Origin: Planotetraspora mira
Lineage (GTDB): Bacteria > Actinomycetota > Actinomycetes > Streptosporangiales > Streptosporangiaceae
DNA: 64,000 bases
Direction of reading: 5' to 3'
NCBI RefSeq assembly: GCF_016863275.1
Contig: NZ_BOOO01000013.1
Coordinates: 1-64,000, forward strand
Shown here: positions 1 to 61,731 of the stretch, piece by piece
Numbering within the stretch: position 1 is the first letter of the stretch
How the letters are laid out: each line of letters begins with the position of its first letter
Notes under the pieces: model-generated
What the model saw: the letters and a program-made list of their open reading frames with translations, nothing else
The model's database searches: none
What the model was told of the DNA's origin: nothing
Position numbers and translations under genes: made by a program

Positions 1-116
1 AAGCTGAACGAGCAGGCTGAATGAGCGGGCTGAGGGTGCACAGGGCGATCGCCGGAAAATGCGCGAATCCCCGGCTGCCACGGCATCGAGCTGGGCAGCC
101 GGGGAGCTGGTCGAAC

Positions 117-59871: not shown

Positions 59872-60786
59872 CTAGGCGGGATGGTGGAGGAACACACGCT
59901 CCTGGACGACGGGATAGCCGGCGCGTGCGAACGCGGCAGCCATCGGAACGTTGCCGACGTCGGTGTCCGCCCCGATCTCGGCGGCTCCGGCGTCCGCCAG
60001 GATGTGGGTGGCCTCGACGAGCAGGTCGTACCCGTAGCCGTGGCCACGCTGTCCGGGGACGACGCCGACGTACCCGATGATCGGGCGCGTGTGGTTCCTG
60101 CCGGGGACGGCGAGGCCGGCCAGGTCTCCCTCCCGGGTGTAGGCCAGGCGCCACCATTCGCGCGGCGACGGCATCCAATGCAGGAACTCCAGCTCGTCCC
60201 TTGCCGAGGCGTCGACGCCTCCACGCGCCATCTCGGCCCGGGCGTGCGCGTCGAGCGTGCTGTGATGCGTGCGGCGGATGACATCGAGGATCACCTCGTC
60301 GTCGGGTTCCGGCCGGAACTCCAGCCGACCCGGCCGCCGGGGAAGACCCGCGTCCGGAGTCCACAGGTAATTGAGACGCTCGACCAGTGGCTCCATGCCG
60401 GCCTGCTCCGCCGCCGAGATCCGGACCTCGGCCTCCGCGCGGACCGCGGGGTCGTCCCGCCATCGCGGCGGCAGGACGAGGCAGTATTCGGCGGTGAACG
60501 GAGCGGCTCGGAGCAGCGCCGCGCCGATCTCGACGTCGGATCCGAAGTCGAACCAGTCGAGGGCCGCGGGTCGCCGGTCGTCCGGGCCGCCCCACCAGGC
60601 GGCCCTGCCGACGACCTCGCCGTCGCGCAGCGCCACCCAGGTCCACTCGGGGCGGTACTGCGCGGCCGCGGCGACCTCCAGATAGTCGCGGCCGGCCCAC
60701 GCCATTCCGACGGACGCCGGGGCGGACAGGGAAAGGAAAAGGTGTTCTTCGCCCGCGGTGAGCGGGCGGATGACCAGATCGGTCAT
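59872..60786 (-). CDS. GNAT-family acetyltransferase
   Basis: A 304-residue protein made of two GNAT-like halves; the C-terminal half has the acetyl-CoA loop GVVPGQRGHGYGYDLLVEAT (about 243-262), while the N-terminal half (VALRDGEVVGRAAWWGG) looks degenerate. The substrate is unknown; two-domain GNATs include antibiotic- and mycothiol-related enzymes. A GGAGGA site lies 9 nt before the ATG, but inside the loop of a 7-bp hairpin, and a short leader frame with perfect Shine-Dalgarno lies upstream, so expression may be controlled by attenuation. Confidence 0.9.
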   Translation of the reverse strand: MTDLVIRPLTAGEEHLFLSLSAPASVGMAWAGRDYLEVAAAAQYRPEWTWVALRDGEVVGRAAWWGGPDDRRPAALDWFDFGSDVEIGAALLRAAPFTAEYCLVLPPRWRDDPAVRAEAEVRISAAEQAGMEPLVERLNYLWTPDAGLPRRPGRLEFRPEPDDEVILDVIRRTHHSTLDAHARAEMARGGVDASARDELEFLHWMPSPREWWRLAYTREGDLAGLAVPGRNHTRPIIGYVGVVPGQRGHGYGYDLLVEATHILADAGAAEIGADTDVGNVPMAAAFARAGYPVVQERVFLHHPA

Positions 60787-60820
60787 GGGGAGCAGTCCTC
60801 CAGGAAGATGGGCGCTCCCC
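60787..60820 (-). promoter_or_regulatory. candidate attenuator hairpin before GNAT gene
   Basis: GGGGAGC (60814-60820 on the minus strand) pairs perfectly with GCTCCCC (60787-60793), which abuts the GNAT ATG. The 20-nt loop holds the GGAGGA ribosome site. An alternative pairing of the same GAGCGCCC (60810-60817) with GGGCGTTC inside the leader peptide gene (60835-60842) is possible with one G-U pair. The two structures exclude each other. Confidence 0.55.
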
Positions 60821-60822
60821 GG

Positions 60823-60879
60823 TCAGACCCGCGTGAACGCCCGAGCGGGAAGGGAGCGCATGAACGGTCGCGTCGACAT
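60823..60879 (-). CDS. 18-residue leader peptide candidate
   Basis: The minus strand has a perfect AAGGAGGTGA Shine-Dalgarno followed after 5 nt by ATG and an 18-codon frame, MSTRPFMRSLPARAFTRV. The stop lies 36 bp before the acetyltransferase ATG. Position, strength of the site and the hairpins behind it are those of a translational or transcriptional attenuator. The peptide has no Cys or run of one amino acid; Arg-rich codons near the end (ARAFTR) could cause stalling. No homology is claimed. Confidence 0.5.
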   Translation of the reverse strand: MSTRPFMRSLPARAFTRV

Positions 60880-61161
60880 GGCTCTCACCTCCTTGGTGCT
60901 CGAGGGCGTGATCCCACCCAAACACATGCGCACGCGCCTGCTCAACTCATTTGTGATCGGAAAAGCGATCGCCTCTCCGCCTGGGATCGCCGGCAGACCT
61001 GATGTACCGTACGGCCCGGCCTTCGCGCCATCGCGGAGGCCGGCGCGCGGAAAACGGCGTGAACTCCTGCCCGGACATGTCGAGAAGCCGCCGGCGGCTC
61101 CGACTTTCTCGTAGAAGGGCGTCCGCCGCGGGCGCCTGACGACGATCACAAGGAGTCGGTG

Positions 61162-61731
61162 ATGAGGAACATCTTCCTTTTCATGATGACGAGTCTCGAC
61201 GGCTACTACGCCGGTCCGAACGGGGAGATCGACTGGCACAACGTCGACGAGGAGTTCAACCAGTTCGCGGCCGACCAGTTGGCGGAGGTCGACACGCTCC
61301 TGTTCGGCCGGGTCACCTATCAGGGCATGGCGTCGTGGTGGCCGACGCCCATGGCGAAGGAGTCCGACCCCGTCATCGCCGAGCGGATGAACGGCATCGC
61401 CAAGCTCGTCGTCTCGACGACCCTGGACTCGGCGGACTGGGCGAACACCCGGCTCATCAAGGACGACGTGGAGGGCGAGATCGCGCGGCTGAAGCGGCGG
61501 CCCGGCAAGGACATCGCGATCTTCGGCAGCTCCGAGTTGACGGTGAGCCTCCTGCGGTCGGGGCTCGTCGACGAGTTGCGGATCATGGTGGCCCCCGTGG
61601 TGCTCGGAGGCGGCAGATCCCTCTTCGCGACGGTGGAGGACAGGGTCGGCGTGGAACTGCTGAAGACGAGGTCGTTCCGTTCCGGCAACGTCCTGCTCCA
61701 CTACCGGCCCGACGGGCGCCGGGCCGTCTGA
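61162..61731 (+). CDS. dihydrofolate reductase family (RibD-C-like) protein
   Basis: A 189-residue protein of the RibD C-terminal/DHFR-like fold. Conserved blocks are FLFMMTSLDGYYAGPNGEID, DTLLFGRVTYQGMASWWP and IAIFGSSELTVSLLRSGLVD with MVAPVVLGGGRSLF. It probably binds NADPH; the substrate is unknown and need not be folate. ATG 61162 is chosen as it lies 6 nt after AAGGAG; GTG 61159 is too close to it. Confidence 0.92.
   Translation: MRNIFLFMMTSLDGYYAGPNGEIDWHNVDEEFNQFAADQLAEVDTLLFGRVTYQGMASWWPTPMAKESDPVIAERMNGIAKLVVSTTLDSADWANTRLIKDDVEGEIARLKRRPGKDIAIFGSSELTVSLLRSGLVDELRIMVAPVVLGGGRSLFATVEDRVGVELLKTRSFRSGNVLLHYRPDGRRAV

Follow-up and report, generated by a model that had tools for sequence, protein, structure and literature searches.

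Translational attenuators of the ermC/cat kind consist of a leader open reading frame (ORF) and of RNA segments which pair either as 1:2 and 3:4 or as 2:3, with the ribosome site of the target gene beside segment 4, and the locus described here shares this arrangement. An actinobacterial upstream ORF (uORF) which senses the inhibition of translation is part of the riboregulation of whiB7/wblC (PMC11550727); for the present locus such sensing is predicted. In the uORF attenuators of the ARE5/LmrC type of Streptomyces the leader structure is switched by a ribosome stalled at the start codon (PMC12421871; PMC8546547), a step which we infer for the present locus as well. In S. coelicolor the start codons of ARE5 uORFs are where PTC drugs, among them lincosamides, streptogramin A and pleuromutilins, detain the ribosome (PMC12421871), which may serve as a precedent for such sensing here.

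A further relative is the WblC/WhiB7 regulon, whose type of promoter motif (GAAAWY-N3-TKG...TANNNT) recurs at many of the elements and is matched in the window in a relaxed form only. This regulon contains 16 GNATs in addition to methyltransferases, hydrolases and oxidoreductases (PMC7157823). Furthermore, the proteins of the WblC regulon of S. coelicolor may be selectively controlled at the level of translation by a mechanism yet to be found (PMC12421871).

The leader region of a tandem GNAT gene and its competing helices

The window is the whole stretch of DNA that was analysed, 64,000 nucleotides of a contig of Planotetraspora mira (NZ_BOOO01000013.1, positions 1 to 64,000). Its features around the acetyltransferase gene are the following:

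59872-60786, minus strand: tandem-GNAT N-acetyltransferase of 304 aa (Pfam PF00583; AlphaFold; Foldseek)
60796-60801, minus strand: GNAT ribosome site GGAGGA, read from the sequence
60800-60807, minus strand: segment 4, CTTCCTGG, adjoining the GNAT Shine-Dalgarno with a two-base overlap (3:4, p<0.0002)
60812-60822, minus strand: segment 3, CCGGGGAGCGC, past the leader stop, partner of 2 (predicted ON) or 4 (predicted OFF); compensatory changes
60823-60879, minus strand: leader ORF, MSTRPFMRSLPARAFTRV followed by the stop, read from the sequence; an ORF lies at the same place in about 70 of 81 orthologues
60837-60845, minus strand: segment A', CTCGGGCGT, in the 3' part of the leader, partner of A (own-versus-swapped test)
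60852-60859, minus strand: segment 2, GCGCTCCC, within the leader ORF, partner of 1 (predicted OFF) or 3 (predicted ON); comparative tests
60881-60892, minus strand: segment 1, GGAGGTGAGAGC, the leader Shine-Dalgarno region, partner of 2 (predicted OFF; p<0.0002)
60894-60885, minus strand: leader ribosome site, AAGGAGGTGA, before the leader ATG at 60879
60901-60909, minus strand: segment A, ACGCCCTCG, partner of A' (own versus swapped p 0.0002)
60940-60954, minus strand: AT-rich ACAAATGAG beside a -35-like TTGAGC, a degenerate WblC/WhiB7-type promoter (relaxed motif only)

The original prediction of an 18-codon leader frame ending 36 bp upstream of the GNAT ATG (60786) is borne out by the sequence, and the leader ribosome site, taken as perfect, is near-perfect. 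A gene for a RibD_C/dihydrofolate-reductase-like protein (window 61159-61731, plus strand) is arranged divergently from the GNAT leader region. The acetyltransferase itself is modelled confidently as a tandem GNAT (AlphaFold, pLDDT 93.7), and its neighbours in Foldseek are the tandem GNAT MAB_4324 of M. abscessus (7q3a), a tandem GNAT of the clavulanic-acid pathway and the mycothiol synthase MshD. The best orthologues are those of P. silvatica (95 %), followed by P. phitsanulokensis and Microtetraspora malaysiensis (84 %). A streptothricin/nourseothricin acetyltransferase was considered and rejected, the match being weak and confined to the C-terminal domain; the fold tells a tandem GNAT and nothing further about the substrate, and a search for anti-phage defence gave no match.

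For comparison 80 GNAT orthologues with their flanks were combined with the window to a set of 81 genes. In about 70 of them a strong ribosome site, some 90 nt upstream, is followed by a short ORF; these leader-bearing orthologues come from Streptosporangiaceae, Micromonospora, Amycolatopsis, Actinophytocola, Kutzneria and Streptomyces, and the leader element is absent from 11 Streptomyces orthologues. With the ribosome site and the motif GYGCTCCC as anchors, segments A, 1, 2, A', 3 and 4 were defined. Their duplex energies within the same gene were then compared with those of partner-swapped and shuffled segments in 30 dereplicated elements, kinship being handled by dereplication only. All four helices are more stable with their own partners (p≤0.0002 each), with values for own versus swapped segments of -18.5 and -16.2 for A:A', -12.4 and -11.1 for 1:2, -18.9 and -17.2 for 2:3 and -13.5 and -12.0 for 3:4.

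Helix 2:3 is mutually exclusive with 1:2 and 3:4. Compensatory changes in 2:3 comprise a replacement of C-G by U-A in ten sequences as well as double changes at other pairs, and the covariation score was reached by none of 500 shuffles and lost when the partner was slid. In addition, the leader Shine-Dalgarno covaries with segment 2 (GGTG with CACC, GGCG with CGCC; Fisher p 6e-7 for all sequences and 0.03 after dereplication); in the window's own sequence helix 1:2 is weak. By these comparisons an attenuator layout of a leader ORF with alternative helices is strongly supported.

The original prediction had assigned the mutually exclusive structures to two other stems. The perfect 7-bp stem GGGGAGC/GCTCCCC at the GNAT ATG exists, and so does the pairing GGGCGTTC/GAGCGCCC with eight pairs including one G-T, but as functional helices both were rejected, with own versus partner-swapped p of 0.71 and 0.68 in the 30 dereplicated orthologues, and control region pairs were likewise non-significant with similar values. 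The stem at the ATG is shortened or absent in relatives from Planotetraspora and Microtetraspora, and the second pairing is not conserved in the orthologues, GAGCGCCC being changed to GAGCGCAC already in the 95 %-identical orthologue of P. silvatica. Judged from these orthologues, both stems are chance features of the window's strain. The leader folding energy of the window alone is unremarkable in comparison to shuffles, and thermodynamic folding of this single sequence was rejected as evidence (z -0.73). Thus the idea of mutually exclusive structures and the likeness to erm/cat-type layouts hold for a leader ORF with other helices, and not for the stems named. The check then proposed, upstream of orthologous GNAT genes, brought out stem covariation in four other helices, with conservation neither of the leader codons nor of the two stems.

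Distribution, target genes and promoters

A covariance model of the element of GNAT1, the family of the window's gene, gave modest-score matches upstream of other genes (model R1). These were included in a second model, R2, which is built partly from this clade, so that its matches in relatives are not independent. With a cut-off of E≤0.003, the E-values of R2 being rough, the element is found in 134 of 395 Actinomycetes genomes and 46 of 138 genera, with up to five copies per genome. It is present in all 20 named genomes, which were chosen for carrying a GNAT1 orthologue. The element is much broader than the one GNAT locus.

Nearly all target genes (128 of the 129 loci read) fall into five families, as grouped by BLAST linkage with individual reading of outliers. 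These are alpha/beta hydrolases, whose nearest solved relative is the esterase 4ao6, rifampin monooxygenase (NCBIfam NF033145, 827 bits versus a cut-off of 800), a PrmC-related methyltransferase (TIGR03704, 405 versus a cut-off of 249), GNAT2 and GNAT1. The window's own genome contains one element for each of the five, among them:

G000:C27:128627-128769: element of the PrmC-related methyltransferase (L212/L148)
G000:C48:13009-13161: element of the rifampin monooxygenase (L202/L147)

In the families other than GNAT1, where 2:3 varies too little to be judged by swapping partners, the comparison of own and swapped partners gave p of 0.52 for 2:3, 0.12 for A:A' and 0.03 for 1:2. Members of the families tested had no match to the curated covariance models of Rfam, and a description of the element was not found in the open-access PMC papers searched. 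It looks like a widespread, undescribed switch that would activate protective enzymes once ribosomes come to a block.

Several leaders have properties of their own. The peptide MNAVSxWVLP is common to leaders of hydrolase, rifampin monooxygenase and GNAT2 genes (L211, L230, L172, L207 and relatives), which suggests that one leader was shuffled among unrelated genes. The leaders of the PrmC-related family start with AUU or AUC instead of AUG or GUG in all 25 cases read (elsewhere, L109 has ATG and L106 GTT). A similar case is infC, whose AUU start is IF3-sensitive, and by analogy a sensor of initiation fidelity is suggested. A divergent GNAT paralogue (L008, L009; other Planotetraspora) possesses a leader with a strong ribosome site ending in SSRGAHRV before the stop, without an obvious match to the element.

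The published WblC consensus is GAAAWY-N3-TKGMNN-16..19-TANNNT (PMC7157823). A relaxed motif, AAAH-N3..6-TKG-N15..22-TANNNT, which was written after the sequences had been seen, occurs in the leader promoter regions of 36 of 67 GNAT1, 38 of 54 hydrolase, 10 of 20 rifampin-monooxygenase and 11 of 13 GNAT2 elements and in none of the 27 PrmC elements. Its background is at most 0.1 % in most shuffles (0.3 % for GNAT2) and at most 0.06 % per 80 nt of genomic sequence. The published core alone is found in 20/67, 21/54, 1/20, 8/13 and 0/27 of these elements, respectively, with a background below 1 %. The window's own promoter has a relaxed match only, its WblC motif being degenerate. Among the 11 leaderless Streptomyces orthologues a WblC-type motif is kept in four (L079, L080, L088, L089), in which the attenuator appears to have been lost and the promoter retained.

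Both the families of controlled genes and the WblC/WhiB7-type promoters favour the link to translation-inhibitor stress made in the original prediction; the rifampin monooxygenase, whose drug acts on RNA polymerase rather than on the ribosome, does not fit it.

Leader start, footprint model and alternative mechanisms

In 58 of 66 elements the distance from the first base of the leader start to segment 2 is 20 nt, and most of the remaining distances are 20+3n. The downstream spacing of these elements ranges between 17 and about 85 nt. The other families have 20-21 nt, although the start codon and the frame over segment 2 differ. Six of seven independent changes in leader length preserve the frame. 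No purifying selection was found on codons 2-7 of the GNAT1 leaders, where changes are mostly non-synonymous, so that the position of the leader rather than its sequence seems to matter. The unconserved peptide speaks against an arrest peptide that is drug-specific as in ermC, and together with the largely constant spacing it points to a hold of the ribosome at the start codon of the leader as the likely trigger. A ribosome with the start codon in the P site reaches about +16; it would thus mask segment 1, and segment 2 would stay accessible.

We consider it rather probable that the element is a translational attenuator built around the leader ORF, with a hold at the start codon and with 2:3 as the ON state. 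At rest, A:A' would enclose 1:2, 1:2 would cover the ribosome site of the leader itself, and hairpin 3:4 would adjoin the GNAT ribosome site and keep GNAT translation low; ribosomes translating the leader would run through and be released. Drugs blocking initiation or the first peptide bonds, or a shortage of charged tRNA, could keep a ribosome on the start codon of the leader. It would mask segment 1 and stop short of segment 2, 20 nt downstream, whereupon segment 2 would pair with 3, segment 4 would be freed and the acetyltransferase would be translated. The WblC/WhiB7-type promoter of most relatives would add transcriptional induction by the same stress.

RNA folding with a masked ribosome footprint, averaged across 35 elements, gave a high probability of 2:3 only with the ribosome at codons 1-2 (from 0.04 to 0.36, and without A from 0.12 to 0.59) and one near zero at codons 4-12. 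A start-codon ribosome makes the GNAT ribosome site easier to open, at a cost of 9.6 instead of 12.1 kcal/mol, or of 7.5 instead of 11.4 without A, a change of 2.5-4; the unpaired probability of the GNAT Shine-Dalgarno barely changes, and the model's support lies in the opening cost of the whole site. For the window alone the probability of 2:3 is 0.03 in the full-length fold even with a ribosome at the start and 0.89 only without A, a dependence that reflects the inability of RNAfold to combine A:A' with 2:3 in one structure. The overlap between helix 3:4 and the GNAT Shine-Dalgarno is confined to the first (5') bases of the latter, so that occlusion of the site would be partial. These points speak against an attenuator with a start-codon hold, as do the weak 1:2 and the degenerate WblC motif of the window, the 11 Streptomyces orthologues without the element and the rifampin monooxygenase, which is no ribosome-drug resistance gene.

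A ribosome near the leader stop also opens the GNAT site in the footprint model; it is the stop-codon ribosome that lowers the opening cost most (12.1 to 7.6), and the leader stop usually lies 2-10 nt upstream of segment 3. Both would suit a translational coupling in which ribosomes ending the leader melt 3:4 and pass to the GNAT site, A:A' and 1:2 setting the reading of the leader. Such coupling is nevertheless unlikely, as in elements of the Streptomyces violaceusniger type the stop lies 30-75 nt before segment 3, yet 2:3 is kept, and the covarying helix 2:3 would be left without a reason.

Quite improbable is a drug-dependent arrest of the ermC/cat kind, in which the stall would occur at an internal codon and depend on a particular nascent chain. 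The layout and the conserved MNAVSxWVLP of the hydrolase, rifampin-monooxygenase and GNAT2 leaders would fit, but peptide conservation is missing among the GNAT1 leaders, segment 2 is read in different frames in different families, with a shift in Dactylosporangium, and ribosomes stalled at codons 4-12 would lie over segment 2. We give still less credence to a ligand-binding riboswitch or protein-binding site using a pseudoknot of A:A' and 2:3: although helices capable of it are conserved and no Rfam family accounts for the element, conservation among the unpaired bases is strongest at the Shine-Dalgarno and the start codon, the loops vary freely, and the downstream enzymes are unrelated and have no common metabolite. 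Transcription attenuation or Rho-dependent premature termination would agree with the uORF switches known from actinobacterial whiB7/wblC and ABCF genes, which act on transcription (PMC11550727; PMC12421871). It is the least credible, since a search of the leader revealed no intrinsic terminator and segment 4 adjoins the ribosome site, although Rho might still act here.

Comparison with known attenuators

The favoured attenuator, with its presumed start-codon hold, probably adds translational control to the way in which actinobacteria respond to translation inhibitors. More tentatively, a single multi-copy switch family of Actinomycetes might sense ribosomes held at start codons rather than a peptide or a drug and form a common translational layer for dispersed protective genes, many of the WblC/WhiB7 type, with the AUU/AUC starts of the PrmC branch sensing initiation itself (start-codon discrimination, IF3). 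A shared RNA switch on families of protective enzymes, many of them WblC-type, is a concrete candidate for the translational control looked for in S. coelicolor. It is testable with simple reporters and, as a regulatory feature, offers a way to track down self-protection enzymes that are still uncharacterised in soil bacteria which produce antibiotics.

In contrast to ermC/cat, segment 1 is here the leader's own ribosome site and an extra helix A:A' is conserved; furthermore, a conserved arrest peptide is missing in GNAT1, the distance from start to segment 2 is 20 nt, and the targets belong to five unrelated families. The whiB7/wblC leader has a Rho-independent terminator and an antiterminator (PMC11550727), whereas none is present here. 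The ARE5/LmrC attenuators differ in their very short uORFs, in terminators in most cases, in their ABCF targets and in the RNA itself (PMC12421871; PMC8546547). The WblC/WhiB7 regulon is defined by transcription, and a shared translational attenuator is not described in the sections of the source drawn on here (PMC7157823). The interpretation in the original prediction is partly supported, and the present element is best seen as a variant of uORF-based attenuation in which the leader ribosome site acts as segment 1 and which serves several target families.
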